In this document: positions 14,086 to 50,334 of the stretch, one piece after another | Numbering within the stretch: position 1 is the first letter of the stretch | Layout: each line of letters begins with the position of its first letter | Assembly (NCBI RefSeq): GCF_000166275.1 | Contig: NZ_CM001023.1 | Coordinates: 4,694,501-4,758,500 of the forward strand | Direction of reading: 5' to 3' | DNA length: 64,000 nt | DNA from: Algoriphagus machipongonensis | GTDB lineage: Bacteria > Bacteroidota > Bacteroidia > Cytophagales > Cyclobacteriaceae | The notes under the pieces: generated by a model | The model's database searches: none | What the model saw: the letters and a program-made list of their open reading frames with translations, nothing else | What the model was told of the DNA's origin: nothing | Position numbers and translations under genes: made by a program

Positions 14086-17000
14086 TTACTCCTCCTCTTC
14101 TTTCCTTCTTGGAACTTTTGCTTGGCCCAATCCTAAGGCTCCTTTTAACCCACTAAAAGTTGCACGCCACCAAGCACCAAAAACAAATTTGGATTTATCT
14201 CGCTCAAAATAAATTCTAGAATTAACCGATTTATTAAATAATTTTCTTGGGTTGGAGTTCTTTGCAATGGTGTTCGCCATAAATGTCATAAATCCCAATT
14301 TTCCTTTTCCCCTTTCCAAAGTCAAGCTATCTAAGAACTCTATTTTTAAATCCTCATAATGGAAATTCATGTCGCCAATAGCTTCCTCTTCATCTAAGGT
14401 GAATCTCCAGTCTCCATCAATCACTTTCCCTTCTAAAATCCTCACAAAAACTCCCCTACTCACCATATTATTTATTTTCGTCAAATCAAACGCCCCCAAT
14501 TCAACTTCAATATCCATAGGATAGGGATCCTCATAAAATAATTCTCCCTTTAACTTGATCTCTCCCTCCCCCATTAATCGTGTAGAGGCAATCATCTGCG
14601 AGGATTTTAAGGGATATTCTGTCCCCTCTTTGCTCAAAACAAATGGTGTTAACCTAACATTCATTTGATCAAAAAACACAGAACCTGGCAACATGGATTT
14701 AGGTCCAAATTCCTGATACCTCACGATACCATTCTCTACGAGAACAGAATCTATTTCCAAATCAAAAGCGGCCGAACTCATCAATGCTTGTGGCATTGCT
14801 TTATAAATCCCTTCCTCTTCCGGAAGCCTTTTATCCCTAAACACATCTAATTCCAAATCATTTAAAATCAAAGCCTGTGCTTTCAGGTTTTTTGATTGAA
14901 AATACTGATCAAAATCAATGTTTTTCAGCGTTAATTTTTTAACCTGCCCATCAATAGCATCTGATTGAAAGCCTTTTTGATTCAGGTAATTATACCTACC
15001 CATTGATGGCCCAAAGGAAATGTTTTCTACAATGATATCATCATCCAGTAAACTCACTTTCCCTATTTTTACTCGATTCATACTATCCTTACTAAGGAAG
15101 TGATAATTTGAAATTGATAACCTCAGGTCCTTTTCTAAAATAAACTGCGGACTGATATTTTGACTATTACCTAATAGGTCAAGATTTAAATCATCAAGTT
15201 CCAAATTGATACTTTCAAAGGCTAATCGATCGATTGCTCCCTGGCTTTTATTATGCAAGGCAACTCTCCCATCTAGAATTTGAATATCCTGCAGTAAAAT
15301 AGATTGTACTAACCCTTCTTTATCCGCTGACTTTGGTGTTTTCTTCTCCTTTTTATTTTCAGCTGAATCCAGATATACGTTTATTTCTGGACTATTTAAG
15401 GTGATTTTATTTAACTCAAAAACACCTGTTTCTTGAATATCCTTTAATGTATTATTCTCTAAGGAAAGTGACTCTAATTGTGCAGAAATAATCGGCTTGC
15501 CAGGACTTCCGGTAGTGTTTTTAGGTATGATCTGGAAATCTGAAAATATAGTCGCATCCAAGGTATTATCCACATTGACACTAGAAAATTTAATCGTATG
15601 CATACTATCAGGTAAGGCAAAAGAAAAATCCTCTAAGGATAAATTAATTTCAGAAAATAGCCCTGATAAGTCTTCTTTGGTATTAGTTGTGGAATCAAAA
15701 ACAAACCCATTAATCGCAATTTCAAACTTGGTCAAAATAGATTGTGCTCCGCTGGTTCCAGTTCTAAAATTTATCCCTAATGTTGAATTGACTGCCTGAA
15801 TAGAATCAATTTGGATGGATTCAATGGATTTCGGTAGATTAGTCTTTACTTCAGATCTAATAGTATCCGCCTCAAAGTCCCTATTGATCTCAATATTAAT
15901 TTGCCCCCCTGTGAGACCTAACTTGTTTAAATCCAGTACATTTTGAAAAAGAAAAGACTCTATGTCCACACCTTGAAATGCCACTTGAGGCAACATCAAT
16001 GAAAGTGCAATTTTGTTATTGAGGTTGGGTCCTGGTTCTAAAGACAAACTATCAATGATGATGGTTTTTTCTAAAGAATTATACTTCAGGTCGCGAGTTG
16101 TGGCAATGTAATTTCCATTCGCTAAGTTAAATGCATAATTACCTAGGCTTAAATCAATCTCTTCAGAGAAGAAGGTTCTATCCTCATTGGCAAGTCCTTC
16201 TCTATTAACATAGAAACTCTTTAGTTTAAGCCCCAAATTATCTTCTTGGAACTGGATATCTTTTTTGCCTGAATAGTTTTGATATTTAATTTTCCCATCC
16301 GAAAAGCTTACTGAATCAATTGATATTTCATTGAAATAAGAGGTAAGCAAACTGCTCACATCATCTGAAGATTCTGGACCACCACCCACTTTGCTTTGCT
16401 GACTCTTACGGAAACGCCTCATCGCAATTTCAGGACTCGGAATAAGAATCTGTTGAATTTCTAACCTTTCATCTTCAAAAGCCGCTCTAACATCAAAACC
16501 CTCAGCCCTAAACTCAGGGATGTTAATACTTAAAATCATACTTTTCCCATATGCATCTAAAGCTTCCTGAACCTGATCTGGATTTTCAGGGCCAATGTTC
16601 AAATTGGAAACAGTAACAATGGAATCTTTTGAATTAATCGTCACATTGTCGGCAGTAAACTCATGCAAATTATCCCTCAACTTCAGTCTATATTGATCTA
16701 AACTCAATATGACTCCTTTAGCCAAGAGAAAATCACTAATATTTTTTGAGGTATTTGGTTGAAAATAGACATCATCCAACTCTAAACTAAACTTCTCAAA
16801 ACCAATATCATCACTTCTTTCACCTGCTTCATTTTTGAATTGAATCTCTCCGTTATCCAAATTGAACTTACCTATATTAACTTCAGATAAATAACCTTCC
16901 AACAAGCCTTTAATCGAAACTCGAGAGGTGGAGTCATTTTCTCGTTTTCTCAATTCGGTAATTTCTACTTTAGGAGCATTAAGTCTCATTCCATTCATCT

Positions 17001-18435
17001 CCAATCTCCCTTCATTATAGAGGAGCTTTAAATTCGCATCTTTCAAAGCAATATTGGGAATAGAAACCCTAATAATGTGAAGTGGATCTTTACCTTCCAA
17101 AGCTCCGGGCCTTGGCTGGAAACTTACATTTTGAATATCAATTTCATCTTTAAAAGAGGAAACGCTTATTCTCTCACCCTCTATCAAATGTATTTCATCC
17201 GAGAGATACAAACTGGCATTTCGAATTTCCATAGCTGCATCTTCTCCATAGAAAAACTGATTCTCCTTTCTATTTTCATCATCACCCAAATAAAAATTGA
17301 CCATTTTAAAATCCATTCCCTCGATATCAATTCTATTCTTCAGCGTGTCTAATGCATCGGAAGTAATAAATTTTCCACGATTGATGGATAATTCCTGAAT
17401 GTCAATTGATTTTAAAAGTCCATCGATCAAATCATTTAAATTCTCTGAGCCTGTGGTATCCTTTTCTGCTTTCACCATTCGCTCCACTTTAAATTGAGGA
17501 TCATCCAACACGAGTTCATCTACCATGACTCTGGAGGTCATAAAAGCCTGGTTTAAATCAACATTTCCTAATCTTAGATTATTTAATTGGGCGAAATAAT
17601 AGGCTTTACTTTCTTTGTTTTTATCCGGCGTCAGGAAAAAATTATCTAGTTCAATTTGATTATCCAATGAGCTTACATACACCTTATCAGCAATGACATC
17701 GTGTACTCCATCTGGCAGTTTAAAATTGACTTTCTCAAGATCAAATTCAAATCCCCTAGCATTGAATGGAGTGGTCCACTCCTCTTTATTTGTCAGATTG
17801 ATATCACGAACGAGCAATCGAGTATTTTCGGCCGTAAGCGTATTTTGACTTAAGAAATTCATAAAAAATAAATCGGCATGATCAATATTTAGTTCTCTGA
17901 TCACTACCCCATTTATTTTCATCCGAGCGATGCTTTTTTTCAACTCGTTTTCTAATGCCGTGACAGGAGACTGATTATTTACTTGAACCGAATCTTGCTC
18001 CGCCTTTTCTTTTGAATCAGGCTTATCGGGCAAATTCATTTTGAAATTCGGATTTTCAAATTCTAGACTTCCTATATAGAAAACGTTGTCTGAAAAACTA
18101 AACCAAAGCCCCCTTAATGCTAGCTCATCCAAAGAAAAATCAAAAAGCGTTTGCTCAGCGCTGGACTCAATTCCTTCAGTCGGCTTCATGATTATACCAT
18201 CTAGAAAAATACCTCTCCGAAGAAGCGAAAAATTAATCCTATTAAATTCTACATTATATACTTCTTCAGTAGCTTCTGTTATTTTGTTCCTGGCCCAATT
18301 GGATAGCAATAAATTAGAGCCGAAATACACTACAAACTCTAAAAAAAGAAGAGAAAGAAATGCAACCATAACCCATCTAATTAGCTTTTTCCGGAGGGGA
18401 TGCGGAGATTTTGTATGGTGAACTTCTTTTGACAT
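14086..18435 (-). CDS. Giant AsmA-like envelope protein
   Basis: The 1449-residue protein has one N-terminal membrane helix (about residues 20-42, WVMVAFLSLLFLEFVVYFGS), followed by LLLSNWARNKITEATEEVY, the pattern of AsmA/TamB-type proteins anchored in the inner membrane with a periplasmic beta-rich body. The body repeats elements such as NIDHADLFF, FNLDNGEIQFKN and SFSDGKIKYQNYS, as in the AsmA/DUF748 group, whose members bridge the periplasm and are thought to move lipids or aid outer-membrane assembly. The C-terminus holds a charged KVPRRKEEEE tail. It is transcribed alone and ends at the palindromic terminator. Family membership is by pattern only; the role is inferred. Confidence 0.65.
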   Translation of the reverse strand: MSKEVHHTKSPHPLRKKLIRWVMVAFLSLLFLEFVVYFGSNLLLSNWARNKITEATEEVYNVEFNRINFSLLRRGIFLDGIIMKPTEGIESSAEQTLFDFSLDELALRGLWFSFSDNVFYIGSLEFENPNFKMNLPDKPDSKEKAEQDSVQVNNQSPVTALENELKKSIARMKINGVVIRELNIDHADLFFMNFLSQNTLTAENTRLLVRDINLTNKEEWTTPFNARGFEFDLEKVNFKLPDGVHDVIADKVYVSSLDNQIELDNFFLTPDKNKESKAYYFAQLNNLRLGNVDLNQAFMTSRVMVDELVLDDPQFKVERMVKAEKDTTGSENLNDLIDGLLKSIDIQELSINRGKFITSDALDTLKNRIDIEGMDFKMVNFYLGDDENRKENQFFYGEDAAMEIRNASLYLSDEIHLIEGERISVSSFKDEIDIQNVSFQPRPGALEGKDPLHIIRVSIPNIALKDANLKLLYNEGRLEMNGMRLNAPKVEITELRKRENDSTSRVSIKGLLEGYLSEVNIGKFNLDNGEIQFKNEAGERSDDIGFEKFSLELDDVYFQPNTSKNISDFLLAKGVILSLDQYRLKLRDNLHEFTADNVTINSKDSIVTVSNLNIGPENPDQVQEALDAYGKSMILSINIPEFRAEGFDVRAAFEDERLEIQQILIPSPEIAMRRFRKSQQSKVGGGPESSDDVSSLLTSYFNEISIDSVSFSDGKIKYQNYSGKKDIQFQEDNLGLKLKSFYVNREGLANEDRTFFSEEIDLSLGNYAFNLANGNYIATTRDLKYNSLEKTIIIDSLSLEPGPNLNNKIALSLMLPQVAFQGVDIESFLFQNVLDLNKLGLTGGQINIEINRDFEADTIRSEVKTNLPKSIESIQIDSIQAVNSTLGINFRTGTSGAQSILTKFEIAINGFVFDSTTNTKEDLSGLFSEINLSLEDFSFALPDSMHTIKFSSVNVDNTLDATIFSDFQIIPKNTTGSPGKPIISAQLESLSLENNTLKDIQETGVFELNKITLNSPEINVYLDSAENKKEKKTPKSADKEGLVQSILLQDIQILDGRVALHNKSQGAIDRLAFESINLELDDLNLDLLGNSQNISPQFILEKDLRLSISNYHFLSKDSMNRVKIGKVSLLDDDIIVENISFGPSMGRYNYLNQKGFQSDAIDGQVKKLTLKNIDFDQYFQSKNLKAQALILNDLELDVFRDKRLPEEEGIYKAMPQALMSSAAFDLEIDSVLVENGIVRYQEFGPKSMLPGSVFFDQMNVRLTPFVLSKEGTEYPLKSSQMIASTRLMGEGEIKLKGELFYEDPYPMDIEVELGAFDLTKINNMVSRGVFVRILEGKVIDGDWRFTLDEEEAIGDMNFHYEDLKIEFLDSLTLERGKGKLGFMTFMANTIAKNSNPRKLFNKSVNSRIYFERDKSKFVFGAWWRATFSGLKGALGLGQAKVPRRKEEEE

Positions 18436-18504
18436 TCAATCTATATTTCATCTAAAAATAGAGAATCTGCATCATATCATTGCTACACAGAGCCCCTCAA
18501 AGCA

Positions 18505-18532
18505 AAAAAGCAGCACAAATGTGCTGCTTTTT
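18505..18532 (-). terminator. Terminator of tRNA-like gene copy 1
   Basis: A 13-bp stem (AAAAAGCAGCACA and its complement) with a 2-base loop ends in a T run on the minus strand. It begins 6 bases past the 3' end of the tRNA-like RNA and shares no sequence with the terminators of copies 2 and 3. Confidence 0.85.
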
Positions 18533-18538
18533 CAGTTG

Positions 18539-18662
18539 CTGTAGGAGAAGGATTCGAACCTCCACGGGGTCGTTAGGCAATAGTCCGGTTTGAATTACGC
18601 TTTATGCTGGGTTCCCCACCCCCGAGACAGGAGGGCTTGTCTGCCAATTTCAACATCCTACA
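18539..18662 (-). tRNA. tRNA-like RNA copy 1: Leu-type body, GUC anticodon, oversized variable arm
   Basis: Read on the minus strand, the RNA folds as a cloverleaf. The acceptor stem is TGTAGGA / TCCTACA (7 bp), followed by G73. The linker is U8-G9. The D arm is TTG-AAATTGGCAGA-CAA with G18-G19. The anticodon stem is CCCTC/GGGGG with loop CTGTCTC, giving anticodon GTC (plus-strand 18626-18628). The T arm is GGAGG-TTCGAAT-CCTTC with one G-U pair. Between the anticodon and T stems lie about 55 bases, against 4-24 in normal tRNAs, closed by a GGGG/CCCC stem. CCA is not encoded. U37 is abnormal, since position 37 is nearly always a purine. It has its own promoter and terminator. The amino acid is uncertain (Asp, Ser or Leu). 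Confidence 0.7.
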
Positions 18663-18771
18663 ATGAAGTAAAATAGGTTTATGGTTTGAGTTATTATATC
18701 TTCTGTTATTAAGGATTTGAATAACAACAATTTGTCAATACCAAAATGTCATCCTCTTATAAATGACTGCC

Positions 18772-18803
18772 CAAAATTAGAAATACCTGCCATTTATTAC
18801 AAT
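18772..18803 (-). promoter_or_regulatory. Promoter of tRNA-like copy 1
   Basis: On the minus strand ATTG (18800-18803) is followed after 20 bases by TAATTTTG (18772-18779), matching TAnnTTTG. The 5' end of the RNA body lies about 110 bases downstream, so a leader must be removed by processing. Confidence 0.55.
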
Positions 18804-19001
18804 TTTGACAATATTTTATTTTATTTTTTACAGTATCTATAATTAAATAATAATTTATTTTACTTAATGTAATTCACCTAGTAAATTTTAAGTAATTATT
18901 ATTAAAATGATAATATTTTATCATTTCACTGTATACACATATTTAATTAGGCCGTACTACCACTTGACCAAATCATACAACACCTCTTATCTAAAGGGCA
19001 T

Positions 19002-19034
19002 AAAAAAAACCATGAAATACAATTTCATGGTTTT
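19002..19034 (-). terminator. Terminator of tRNA-like copy 2
   Basis: A 13-bp stem (AAAACCATGAAAT and its complement, loop of 3) is followed on the minus strand by a long T run. It starts about 32 bases past the RNA 3' end. Confidence 0.85.
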
Positions 19035-19065
19035 AGTCAATTAACAATAAACCCAAAATAACCTG

Positions 19066-19189
19066 CTGTAGGAGAAGGATTCGAACCTCCACGGAGTAGT
19101 TAGGCAAATTACGAGCTCGCTAAATGCTTTATCCCATGACCTCCACCCCCGAGACAGGAGGGCTTGTCTGCCAATTTCAACATCCTACA
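19066..19189 (-). tRNA. tRNA-like RNA copy 2: Leu-type body, GUC anticodon, oversized variable arm
   Basis: The arms are the same as in copy 1: acceptor TGTAGGA/TCCTACA with G73, D arm TTG...CAA, anticodon loop CTGTCTC (GTC at plus-strand 19153-19155), and T loop TTCGAAT. The variable stem is GGAG/CTCC here instead of GGGG/CCCC, a compensatory change. The inside of the variable arm differs from copy 1 except for ATAAAGC on the 5' side and TTGCCTAAC on the 3' side. An inner hairpin can form around CGAGCTCG. It is nearly identical to copy 3, differing by one base in the anticodon stem and one missing base in the variable arm. Confidence 0.7.
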
Positions 19190-19289
19190 GTATGTGTTTT
19201 TCGGCCCTATGCCGAATAATCTTTTCTGGAAGTATTACTTTGGGCAAAAGCGTTTTACAGCTTTTCGTCATTCTTGACTTCCATTGTTT

Positions 19290-19321
19290 CAAAAGTAACA
19301 GATCAAACGTTTCATTGCAAA
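19290..19321 (-). promoter_or_regulatory. Promoter of tRNA-like copy 2
   Basis: On the minus strand TTTG (19318-19321), 20 bases, then TACTTTTG (19290-19297): an exact match to the Bacteroidota housekeeping promoter. The RNA body starts about 100 bases downstream. Confidence 0.65.
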
Positions 19322-19488
19322 TAAATTATCATTTAATTTATTTTATTACATTATTTTTAATAAAAAAGCATTTTTAATGATTTTTAAGCAATCCAGAATG
19401 AGATTCAATCATTCACATTTAGAATTTTGCAATATTCGATAAGAAGGATTGTTTGGTAAACAAGGGCAGTCTGAAAAAAATTAGGCAT

Positions 19489-19521
19489 AAAAAAAACCAT
19501 GAAATACAATTTCATGGTTTT
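19489..19521 (-). terminator. Terminator of tRNA-like copy 3
   Basis: It has the same 13-bp hairpin and minus-strand T run as the copy 2 terminator, about 32 bases past the RNA 3' end. Confidence 0.85.
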
Positions 19522-19552
19522 AGTCAATTAACAATAAACCCAAAATAACCTG

Positions 19553-19677
19553 CTGTAGGAGAAGGATTCGAACCTCCACGGAGTAGTTAGGCAAATTTAC
19601 GAGCTCGCTAAATGCTTTATCCCATGACCTCCACCCTCGAGACAGGAGGGCTTGTCTGCCAATTTCAACATCCTACA
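19553..19677 (-). tRNA. tRNA-like RNA copy 3: Leu-type body, GUC anticodon, oversized variable arm
   Basis: At 125 nt this is the best-paired copy. The acceptor stem is perfect over 7 bp, and the anticodon stem CCCTC/GAGGG has no wobble pair. The loop CTGTCTC gives GTC (plus-strand 19641-19643). The variable region is 56 bases with outer stem GGAG/CTCC and an inner stem GC-ATTTA / TAAAT-TT-GC enclosing GCGAGCTCG. The D loop keeps G18-G19 and A14, and the T loop is TTCGAAT, so the normal elbow can form. G73 is followed by CA but not CCA. Its promoter is closer than in the other copies, giving a leader of about 30 bases. Confidence 0.72.
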
Positions 19678-19715: not shown

Positions 19716-19748
19716 CAAATATAGGCACAGCAGATTGATTATTACAAA
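19716..19748 (-). promoter_or_regulatory. Promoter of tRNA-like copy 3
   Basis: On the minus strand TTTG (19745-19748), 21 bases, then TATATTTG (19716-19723), an exact -7 match. This promoter is unrelated in sequence to those of copies 1 and 2 outside the consensus boxes. Confidence 0.65.
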
Positions 19749-19959: not shown

Positions 19960-20994
19960 CTATTCAAAATTTACATAAGTCTCCCATTTCTCCAGTACAT
20001 CTGCAAAATCTTTTGGTAAGCCTACTTCATAATAAACTTTTTCTTTGCTTACTGGATGAATGAAACCCAAAGACATCGCATGTAGAGCCTGTCGAGGGAT
20101 CAAATCAAAACAATTTTGAACAAAAGTCTTATACTTTGAAAACTGAGTCCCTTTCCTGATTTTATCTCCCCCATACATCGCATCATTAAATAAAGGATGT
20201 CCAATATATTTCATATGAGCTCTGATCTGATGGGTTCGGCCTGTCTCTAGGTTACATTGAATCAAACTCACATACCGAAGCCTTTTCAAAACTTTCCAAT
20301 GGGTGATCGCATGCTTTCCCTGCTCCCCATCTGGAAAAACATCCATTACCTTTCTGTTCTTGGCGCTTCTCCCAACATTCCCTTCTATGGTTCCTTCATC
20401 CTCTTTAGGCTCTCCCCAAACCAATGCTATATAAGTCCTGTCTATTGTATGATGGAAAAACTGCGAGGCTAAATGCGTCATTGCTTCTTCCTGCTTGGCA
20501 ATTACCAAAAGCCCAGAAGTGTCTTTATCAATCCGGTGAACCAAACCTGGTCTGCCTTCATTCCCTTTCATTTCCGGCAAATCTTGAAAATGATAGACCA
20601 AAGCATTTGCCAGAGTCCCGGACCAATTTCCATGAGCTGGATGAACAACCATTCCTGCAGGTTTATTGACGATCAGCAAATATTTATCTTCATAAATAAT
20701 ATCAAGCTCGATCTTTTCAGGATAAACTTCCGTATCCCTAGGTGGCTTTTCCATCATAACCTTGATGTCATCCATGGGCTTGATTTTATAATTTGCCTTT
20801 GTAGGTTTACCATTCACCAAAACCGAACCTGCATCAATGGCCTGCTGCACTTTATTCCGAGTAGCGTTGGCTAATTTTTCGCTTAGAAACTTATCAATCC
20901 TGATATTTTTCTGCCCTTTATCTATGGAAATCTGGTAATGCTCAAATAATTCGACTTCCTCGTCTTCAAAGTCTTCTGCTGGATTATTGCTCAT
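19960..20994 (-). CDS. RluD-type 23S rRNA pseudouridine synthase
   Basis: The 344-residue protein converts specific uridines to pseudouridine, most likely in 23S rRNA helix 69 if it is a true RluD. An acidic N-terminus (residues 1-20) precedes an S4-like RNA-binding domain (about 30-85, IRIDKFLSEKLANATRNKVQ). The RluA-family catalytic domain carries VHRIDKDTSG with catalytic Asp156. The conserved GRTHQIRAH and GHPLFNDAMYGG motifs follow. It lies to the right of the tRNA-like array on the same strand, but those RNAs have separate promoters, so co-transcription is not implied. RluA family members can also act on tRNA, so the exact target is not settled by sequence. Confidence 0.92.
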   Translation of the reverse strand: MSNNPAEDFEDEEVELFEHYQISIDKGQKNIRIDKFLSEKLANATRNKVQQAIDAGSVLVNGKPTKANYKIKPMDDIKVMMEKPPRDTEVYPEKIELDIIYEDKYLLIVNKPAGMVVHPAHGNWSGTLANALVYHFQDLPEMKGNEGRPGLVHRIDKDTSGLLVIAKQEEAMTHLASQFFHHTIDRTYIALVWGEPKEDEGTIEGNVGRSAKNRKVMDVFPDGEQGKHAITHWKVLKRLRYVSLIQCNLETGRTHQIRAHMKYIGHPLFNDAMYGGDKIRKGTQFSKYKTFVQNCFDLIPRQALHAMSLGFIHPVSKEKVYYEVGLPKDFADVLEKWETYVNFE

Positions 20995-48579: not shown

Positions 48580-50334
48580 TTATTTTTTAATATTCAATTG
48601 TATGGAAAGCTCTCCCAGCTGTTCGGGCGCTATCGAACTTGGTGAATCAATCATCACATCCCTTCCAGAATTATTTTTAGGGAAGGCAATGTAATCTCTA
48701 ATGGAATCAGAACCACCAAAAATGGCACATAGCCTATCAAAACCAAATGCAATTCCTCCATGGGGAGGTGCTCCGTATTCGAATGCTTCCATCAAGAATC
48801 CAAACTGCTTCTGAGCTTCTTCATCAGTGAATCCAAGGTGTTTAAACATCAACTGCTGAGTCGCTCTGTCGTGGATACGAATAGATCCGCCTCCAATTTC
48901 AACCCCATTGATCACCAAATCATAGGCGTTGGCTCTAACAGCCCCTGGATCAGAATCCAATAATGGAATATCTTCTTTCTTGGGTGAGGTAAATGGATGG
49001 TGCATCGCATGGTAGCGCTCAGTTTCCTCGTCCCATTCTAATAATGGAAAATCTACCACCCAAAGTGGTTTAAATACATTTCTATCACGAAGTCCCAAAT
49101 CCTCGCCCATTTTCAAACGAAGTTCTGAAAGCTGTTTTCTCACTTTATTAGCATCTCCGCTGAGGATCAACATCAAGTCTCCTGGCTCAGCTTCAAATGC
49201 TGATGCCCAAGCTTGTAAATCCTCCTGAGAATAAAATTTATCTACGGTAGATTTGATCGTTCCATCCGCATTGTATTTGGCGTAAACCATCCCCTTCGCT
49301 CCAATCTGAGGTCTTTTGACCCAATCAGTTATAGCATCCAGTTGTTTTCTAGTATACTCTGCAGCGCCTTTGGCACAAATCCCTACAACCAATTCTGCAT
49401 TATCAAATATGCCAAAACCCTTTCCTTGAGCAAGCTCATTCAGTTCGACAAATTTCATATCGAATCGAAGGTCTGGCTTGTCATTACCATAATACTTCAT
49501 GGCATCTGCATAAGTCATACGCTTCACTTCTTCCAGCTCGACCCCTTTGACATTAGCAAATAGGTGTTTGGTCAAGCCTTCAAAAGTTGATAAAATATCT
49601 TCCTGCTCCACAAAAGCCATTTCACAGTCAATCTGAGTGAATTCTGGCTGGCGATCTGCTCTCAAATCTTCATCACGGAAGCACTTGACAATCTGAAAAT
49701 ACCGGTCAAAACCGGATACCATCAACAATTGCTTAAAAGTCTGAGGTGATTGTGGCAAAGCATAAAACTCTCCAGGGTTTACCCTACTTGGAACGACAAA
49801 ATCTCGGGCTCCCTCAGGAGTGGACTTGATTAATACAGGAGTCTCTACTTCCATAAAATGCTCCGCATCCATGTATTTACGAGTCTCTTGCATCATTCTA
49901 TGTCTCAGATGTAGCTTTTCCCTAACCACATTTCTTCTAAGGTCAAGATACCTGTATTTCATGCGAAGCTCCTCACCCCCATCCGTATCATCTTCTATAA
50001 TAAAAGGAGGAACTTTAGCAGCATTTAGAACTTGCAGATCTGTTGCTTTGATCTCGATAGATCCTGTGGGGATTTTATCATTTTTGGAAGTCCGTTCAAT
50101 GACAGTTCCTGTTGCTTGCACAACAAATTCACGGCCTAATTCTGCCGCTTTTTCCAATAGAGCTTTATCCGTAGATCCTTCTTCAAAAATTAATTGGGTA
50201 ATACCATATCTATCTCTTAGGTCTACCCATACGAGACCTCCTTTGTTTCTTACTCGCTGTACCCAGCCAGACAAAGTGACTTCTTGATTGACATGATCTA
50301 GGCGTAATTCGCCACAAGTATGCGTCCTCAGCAT
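48580..50334 (-). CDS. aspS: Aspartyl-tRNA synthetase
   Basis: AspRS charges tRNA-Asp with aspartate. The 584-residue class II enzyme begins [20 protein letters not shown] with the OB-fold anticodon domain (about 1-110). The catalytic domain has [20 protein letters not shown] (motif 1 region), [18 protein letters not shown] (motif 2) and [15 protein letters not shown] (motif 3), with the bacterial insertion of about 120 residues in between. GGGSIRIHD is the conserved amino-acid pocket segment. It is transcribed alone and ends at the UUCG terminator. AspRS reads the GUC anticodon and G73, both present in the tRNA-like RNAs at 18.5-19.7 kb. Confidence 0.97.

Follow-up and report, generated by a model that had tools for sequence, protein, structure and literature searches.

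In the tRNA-dependent asparagine synthesis described for Bdellovibrio, Deinococcus and Thermus, a relaxed, non-discriminating AspRS acts with decoding tRNA-Asn as the substrate, and GatCAB, which recognises the U1-A72 pair on tRNA-Asn, is kept despite the presence of AsnRS and GlnRS (PMC4206432; this and the papers below are cited from excerpts). Bacteroidetes appear in the same excerpt among the genera that have AsnRS, GlnRS and GatCAB and no Asn synthetase, with tRNA-Asn named as the carrier (PMC4206432). The RNA family described here is similar to this system in its predicted enzymes and chemistry, in U1-A72 and G73, and in the retention of GatCAB. It differs in being a separate hybrid that joins Asp anticodon determinants, an Asn/Gln-type first pair, a Leu-type body and a long arm.

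A second relevant system is the asnC-asnA pair of Escherichia coli, two adjacent and divergent genes. In E. coli, AsnC is an activator of asnA whose effect is reduced or abolished by asparagine (PMC8707732 and PMC4482635, in excerpt). The locus in Bacteroidota likewise ties an AsnC-type regulator to a predicted asparagine-synthesis gene, but the neighbour of the regulator is an RNA and not a synthetase. Two kinds of unusual tRNA are also comparable. The tRNA-Other of Bacillus cereus is a regulated tRNA-like RNA outside translation, itself poorly aminoacylated; in contrast to the RNA here it has a Trp anticodon and flanks a pathogenicity island, and no link to GatCAB or AsnC is noted in the excerpt (PMC3399842). 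The allo-tRNAs and selC-like tRNAs share the long variable arm and include GUC among their anticodons (PMC7609411, in excerpt). They carry other amino acids, and their 8/4 or 9/3 acceptor branches are absent from our family, which has a 7-bp acceptor stem, a 5-bp T stem and a class II body of the Leu type, with a Leu-type D arm and a GU linker before the T stem.

We think it likely, from comparative sequence analysis, that this RNA is a dedicated, predicted non-decoding tRNA for tRNA-dependent asparagine formation by AspRS and GatCAB under AsnC control, probably a carrier on which aspartate becomes asparagine and not an adaptor for reading genes. No description of the RNA, or of a dedicated RNA for asparagine, was found among the matches listed in open-access PMC; the chemistry would be of a known kind, and a separate RNA for asparagine formation appears to be new.

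Three tRNA-like units in Algoriphagus machipongonensis

The window, a stretch of 64,000 nucleotides of the A. machipongonensis genome (contig NZ_CM001023.1, positions 4,694,501 to 4,758,500), had been proposed in a sequence-only reading to hold three cloverleaf-like loci of 124-125 nt with perfect 7-bp acceptor stems and variable regions of 55-56 bases, each with its own Bacteroidota promoter (spacers of 20, 20 and 21) and its own terminator, that of copy 1 being unrelated to the others. Coordinates, stems and T loop were reproduced on the minus strand, a script search recovered the three promoters with the same spacers, and copy 1 was found to have its own hairpin while copies 2 and 3 share one (Table 1). 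The copies have the acceptor stem TGTAGGA/TCCTACA, a 3-bp D stem with GG, a Leu-type D loop of 11 nt that is similar in most relatives, the T loop TTCGAAT and a variable region of about 55 nt. The units are flanked by a pseudouridine synthase gene (PF00849 plus S4, 19960-20994) and, downstream of copy 1 on the minus strand, by an open frame of 1449 aa (14086-18435) for which Pfam gave no match at E 0.001; a related frame comes after the RNA in 54 loci.

Table 1. Window coordinates of the RNA units, their signals and the predicted charging enzyme; RNA lengths run from base 1 through base 73.
Feature	Position	Strand	Remarks
tRNA-like RNA copy 1	18539..18662	minus	124 nt; type A apical loop; base 73 at 18539, C74 at 18538
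tRNA-like RNA copy 2	19066..19189	minus	124 nt; type B apical loop with CGAGCTCG; C74 at 19065
tRNA-like RNA copy 3	19553..19677	minus	125 nt; type B; C74 at 19552; anticodon stem CCCTC/GAGGG
Promoter of copy 1, TTG-N20-TAATTTTG	18772..18802	minus	script search
Promoter of copy 2, TTG-N20-TACTTTTG	19290..19320	minus	script search
Promoter of copy 3, TTG-N21-TATATTTG	19716..19747	minus	script search
Intrinsic terminator of copy 1, GCAGCACATTTGTGCTGC + T run	18504..18532	minus	
Intrinsic terminator of copy 2, CCATGAAATTGTATTTCATGG + T run	19002..19031	minus	
Intrinsic terminator of copy 3	19489..19518	minus	hairpin identical to that of copy 2
3' trailer of copy 2	19032..19065	minus	near-identical in most, not all, type-B copies of related genera
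3' trailer of copy 3	19519..19552	minus	same element as in copy 2
Aspartyl-tRNA synthetase gene core	48673..49974	minus	predicted charging enzyme; partner by inference, no synteny link

Within the window ARAGORN reported no gene and Rfam 15 no match at the gathering score; permissive Rfam scans of the window stretch and two relatives gave low-scoring matches only, all below gathering, and the single gathering match of Rfam 15 in 16 fetched loci was a normal tRNA. Single-sequence folding energies were not better than those of shuffled sequences (z 0.24, 0.29 and -0.34, with copy 2 entered one base off), so that folding energy is no evidence here, and conservation is.

The expression signals recur outside Algoriphagus. 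In 57 of 82 intergenic regions between a divergent regulator (see below) and the RNA, TANNTTTG occurs at most 75 nt upstream of the RNA (4.2 expected from shuffles), and TTG-N17..23-TANNTTTG lies at most 110 nt upstream in 36 (0.6 expected). A terminator-like hairpin with a T run follows within 70 nt in 96 of 105 copies of types A and B and in 58 of 166 others, against 6 of 271 shuffled sequences; the lower fraction makes independent termination less clear outside these two types. The type-B trailer is near-identical in Algoriphagus, Cyclobacterium, Belliella, Echinicola, Mariniradius, Cecembia and Arthrospiribacter, where the terminator stems covary, and is missing from type-B copies in L125, L187, L197 and L228 and from the second copy in L129, L171 and L233. 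A separate function of the trailer is possible. No further trailer copy with at most 3 mismatches over 26 bases was present in the Algoriphagus genome, and short pairing targets are still possible.

Distribution and structure of the RNA family

A DNA search matched 48 of 58 relatives, covering 13 of 22 genera. For a wider survey, 295 genomes of the class were searched with the covariance model R1, built from 21 copies. Some match was returned in 286 of them, and 51 genomes from 19 families stood above a score gap between 68.5 and 60.2 bits, in which the line for RNA-positive genomes was set at 65 bits after the gap had been seen. Matches below that line, among those listed, scored 52-60 bits at 76-87 nt, the size of ordinary tRNA-Leu, which they are taken to be. 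A genome counted as RNA-negative thus has no R1 match of at least 65 bits under the first-look filter, a definition that misses diverged forms such as L244. The sequence-only reading had made its case depend on homologues with conserved arms in Bacteroidota, and the covariance-model search supplied them in these 51 genomes. A pattern scan of GTDB genomes gave at least 119 stretches, all with Bacteroidota titles, and the matches listed include Algoriphagus, Cyclobacterium, Echinicola, Dyadobacter, Spirosoma, Runella, Emticicia, Flammeovirga, Portibacter, Saprospiraceae and others; the scan used an exact anticodon-arm pattern and is therefore of no use for judging that arm. In Flammeovirga pacifica five copies lie in tandem at intervals of about 197 bp (L176:3688-4630). 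Phage origin of the RNA was rejected, with one weak partial match in 50,697 records.

The fold is judged to be real from covariation and not from folding energy. In the consensus of 37 diverse copies, both partners vary in 18 of the 33 predicted pairs. The alignment is 91.7% paired, a figure lowered by an anticodon helix set one column off, and with this same offset its covariation score is 0.463, against 0.197 for shuffled alignments (none of 500 reached the observed score) and at most 0.132 for slid ones. The variable region spans about 30 to more than 100 nt across 230 copies and is composed of a 4-bp stem, a 3-bp stem, an internal loop AUAAA / CUAAC, an 8-bp stem and an apical part, which contains GACCAC in 81 of the 230 distinct copies and is cut down to two conserved types, A and B, in Algoriphagus and its relatives. 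The long arm is a covarying, conserved structured domain. Since this is so, splicing to a normal tRNA, which had been named as a possible refutation, is not indicated; one species has a naturally 75-nt form. The earlier argument that the units are hard to explain by decay also holds, as covariation and conservation across 19 families rule out decay as a general account.

Three further readings of the structure were rejected. A twister or other ribozyme in the arm, considered for a resemblance to what we take to be the twister motif, found no such Rfam match at E up to 10 in the window stretch and up to 5 in two relatives. Pairing between the D loop and the anticodon loop, and kissing self-pairing of the apical loops, are both disrupted by sequence variants as read from the copy alignments.

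Several odd forms were noted. The 75-nt relative (L259:939-1014, minus strand, G047) lacks the long arm and is called tRNA-Asp(ATC) by ARAGORN, and its genome has AsnA. In L260:1037-1143 (plus strand, G215) the anticodon loop is CGTTCTA, with UUC as a Glu anticodon and a stem mismatch; this copy could be a Glu/Gln version or a product of decay, and its genome has no AsnC-like gene match at E 1e-30. The anticodon loop is deleted in L287:61-206 (plus strand, G174), either by decay or by an assembly error, and the RNA of G338 has another arm.

An AsnC-like regulator and its divergent slot

In an all-against-all comparison of 1011 frames around the copies, no neighbour was shared as widely as a divergent Lrp/AsnC-type regulator, which occurs in 82 of 197 loci; in 33 loci sufB lies close to this regulator. 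Two other neighbour clusters (59 and 54 loci) represent the flanks seen in Algoriphagus and its relatives. The RNA is divergent from the regulator in 31 of the 51 genomes and 15 of the 19 families, with a gap of 122-278 bp. In Algoriphagus the RNA has moved away from the regulator, which is found elsewhere, still upstream of a sufB-like frame. The best solved chain for this regulator is AsnC (2cg4, which we take to be from E. coli), at 125.8 bits against 88.2 for the next. Two regulators compared with NCBIfam had PRK11179 as their best family, at 173.1 and 164.4 bits; both are below the curated AsnC cut-off of 227, and the protein is therefore named AsnC-like. A match of at least 171 bits, a line of our own setting with no score gap (the next match has 170.2), is present in 50 of 51 RNA-positive and 17 of 244 RNA-negative genomes; at E 1e-30 the counts are 50 of 51 and 42 of 244.

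The 17 RNA-negative genomes with a regulator of at least 171 bits were inspected for what occupies the slot, 25 genomes with weaker matches lying outside this set. In five (G333, G309, G155, G275 and G228) the slot divergent from the regulator holds an asparagine synthetase gene scoring above the NCBIfam cut-off, three of them AsnB and two AsnA-type proteins related to AsnRS. A sixth (G184) has a diverged RNA upstream of the AsnC-like gene (L244:1270-1382, minus strand) that keeps the acceptor stem, the T arm and G73-C74 and has a single hairpin in place of the D and anticodon arms. No asparagine gene was recognised in the other 11, judged by Pfam in 2 and by the first 70 residues in 9. The frames L245:2-1024 and L246:70-1143 (minus strand), divergent from the AsnC-like gene, have similar N-termini and no Pfam match, and their genomes have AsnA and neither the RNA nor GatB. 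Riboswitch-like control of the downstream gene was rejected in general, as downstream genes vary by lineage and are on the same strand in 99 of 155 cases; it is possible in single lineages.

This neighbourhood bears on two rival accounts. The RNA could be a dedicated aminoacyl donor whose Asp or Asn is passed to a lipid, the cell wall, a protein or a small molecule; its acceptor end is that of a real tRNA, and non-decoding tRNAs serve as donors in other bacteria. However, the top neighbour is the AsnC-like gene, accompanied by sufB in the loci noted above, and no transferase was recognised beside the RNA among recurrent neighbour clusters that are annotated in part, and we regard the donor account as improbable. 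Alternatively, an RNA under AsnC control might be bound or charged by AspRS and GatCAB and yet act by sensing or titration, as a charge sensor, a decoy or a base-pairing sRNA. Divergence from an AsnC-like gene, the elaborate arm with its conserved apical parts and the 3' trailer conserved in many relatives of Algoriphagus fit such a regulator, and tRNA-Other offers a precedent as a tRNA-like element inside a regulatory RNA (PMC3399842, in excerpt). Regulation alone does not account for the asparagine synthetase genes in the same slot of five genomes, nor for a canonical-scoring GatB that is kept beside GlnRS only together with the RNA (see below), and this account is unlikely, though less so than the donor.

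Co-occurrence with GatCAB and asparagine synthetases

GatCAB was scored by GatB alone (PF02934), GlnRS by PF03950 (present in 101 of 295 genomes), and AsnRS was checked in the Algoriphagus genome only, which has AspRS, AsnRS, GatB and GlnRS. GatB is present in 51 of 51 RNA-positive and 175 of 244 RNA-negative genomes. Bacteria without GlnRS use GatCAB to make Gln-tRNA (PMC4206432, in excerpt), so that the informative comparison is within the 101 genomes that have GlnRS, where GatB accompanies the RNA in 26 of 26 genomes and occurs without it in 15 of 75. These 15 matches score lower (eight in family f32 at about 1e-93 to 1e-99, six in f35/f81 at about 1e-40 to 1e-45, one at 1e-4), and with a line at E < 1e-100, drawn afterwards, the contrast becomes 26 of 26 against 0 of 75. 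In the other 194 genomes, which lack GlnRS, GatB accompanies the RNA in all 25 cases and is also present in 160 of the 169 RNA-negative ones; GatB alone is thus no predictor of the RNA.

The GlnRS-containing genomes of families f22, f55 and f60 comprise 13 with both RNA and GatB and six with neither (G173; G132 and G308; G097, G200 and G310), which implies three or more joint changes provided that the families are clades. AsnA is present in three of the six, alone in G173 and with an AsnB-type protein in G097 and G310; G200 and G308 have an AsnB-type protein, and in G132 neither was detected at the thresholds used. Genome-wide, the presence of AsnA or AsnB is not a simple mirror of the RNA. 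No anti-correlation with AsnA was seen over the 295 genomes (2 of 51 RNA-positive against 12 of 244 RNA-negative, p = 1; Fisher p values of co-occurrence here ignore phylogeny). AsnB-family proteins, with four candidates scored per genome, occur in 269 of 295 genomes and 49 of the 51 with the RNA, the exceptions at E 1e-50 being G058 and G215, and the Algoriphagus genome itself has three matches. As this family is nearly everywhere, the RNA is not in general the sole asparagine route. The role in asparagine formation is nevertheless favoured, because the divergence from an AsnC-like gene, the asparagine synthetases in the same slot and the co-occurrence with GatB converge on it.

Identity elements of the RNA

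A filter requiring TG..CA ends and UC/C38 in the loop had dropped 95 of 325 raw script hits, which makes the table of 230 copies circular for those positions. Identity counts were therefore redone unfiltered, with one best copy for each of the 51 RNA-positive genomes. U1-A72, G2-C71, G73 and C74 are present in 51 of 51 (the 5' end of G284 reread), and in the anticodon loop, with misplaced ones read by eye, U35 and C36 occur in 50, C38 in 48 and G34 in 47. The bacterial Asp identity set comprises G73, G34, U35, C36, C38 and G10 (PMC9976931, in excerpt). Compared with that account, the RNA keeps U35, C36, C38, G73 and G2-C71, mostly G34, and not G10, which appears in 9 of 230 copies only. The RNA has U1-A72 where tRNA-Asp has G1-C72, a pair that helps AspRS, and the anticodon is GUC in most copies, with the A73 and Leu anticodon of tRNA-Leu absent. 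The lack of G10 in most copies and the replacement of G1-C72 count against the proposed role, and so does the D loop: extra nucleotides 20a/20b are unfavourable for GatCAB, whose substrate has no nucleotide 20A, and the Leu-type D loop of the RNA carries them.

Most normal tRNA genes of the Algoriphagus genome encode N73-C74 and not CA, Gly-GCC being a possible exception. With C74 in all 51 genomes and the 75th base free (230-copy table), the RNA looks like an ordinary substrate of the tRNA 3' pathway.

The anticodon loop of the window copies (CTGTCTC) differs from that of the genome's tRNA-Asp (CTGTCAC) at position 37 only; U33 is present, but position 37 is U. In 40 of the 51 genomes this position is U; six others have G, three C and one A, and one has lost the base, whereas the normal tRNAs compared have a purine there (two Lys rows A, and a Leu-TAG row G, by eye). 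A purine at 37 in 7 of 51 and U33 in 42 of 51 make the non-decoding character a tendency only. Since the Asp set is mostly kept, U1-A72 is kept and positions 33 and 37 vary, the features relevant to AspRS and GatCAB appear to be largely retained and those relevant to the ribosome not. Two other identities, an atypical tRNA-Asp that decodes and a tRNA-Leu gene in decay, would fit the GUC anticodon of most copies, the name ARAGORN gives to the short L259 form and single damaged copies such as L287. Both are highly improbable given the predominance of U37 and the strong covariation, and a decoding tRNA-Asp would be added to two normal tRNA-Asp genes already in the Algoriphagus genome.

Proposed pathway and its meaning

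Conservation and covariation speak for a functional RNA, the best reading of which is an unusual tRNA used outside the ribosome, one of the options first suggested; asparagine formation is its likely role. In the proposed pathway, AspRS would charge the RNA with aspartate by way of U35, C36, C38, mostly G34, G73 and G2-C71, and GatCAB would then amidate Asp to Asn on the RNA because U1-A72 replaces the G1-C72 of tRNA-Asp. The altered positions 33 and 37, and perhaps the long arm, would keep this Asn from Asp codons; the variable domain may be a docking site for AspRS or GatCAB, or a means of holding the RNA away from EF-Tu and the ribosome. Free Asn would be released by hydrolysis or by a helper, although we know of no such release step, and could then be used by AsnRS. 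The divergently encoded AsnC-like regulator, presumably asparagine-sensing, would bind and set transcription, so that synthesis of the RNA goes up when Asn is low.

A bolder form of this proposal has, in our estimate, a slightly better than even chance of being right. It holds that biosynthetic tRNAs are a new class of RNA, that the RNA with AspRS and GatCAB replaces asparagine synthetase wholly, that the long domain scaffolds a standing AspRS-RNA-GatCAB complex, and that the RNA has been swapped with protein asparagine synthetases at an AsnC-controlled locus in Bacteroidota evolution.

In the literature excerpts covered here, tRNA-dependent asparagine synthesis has so far run on decoding tRNA-Asn with a relaxed synthetase, and a separate RNA would avoid mistranslation. 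If the proposed role is correct, it would explain why GatCAB is kept in some Bacteroidota beside GlnRS (and beside AsnRS, in the one genome checked), and it would add a missed RNA gene to many genomes, as ARAGORN and Rfam report nothing at this locus. A noncoding RNA would then occupy the place of a biosynthetic enzyme gene.
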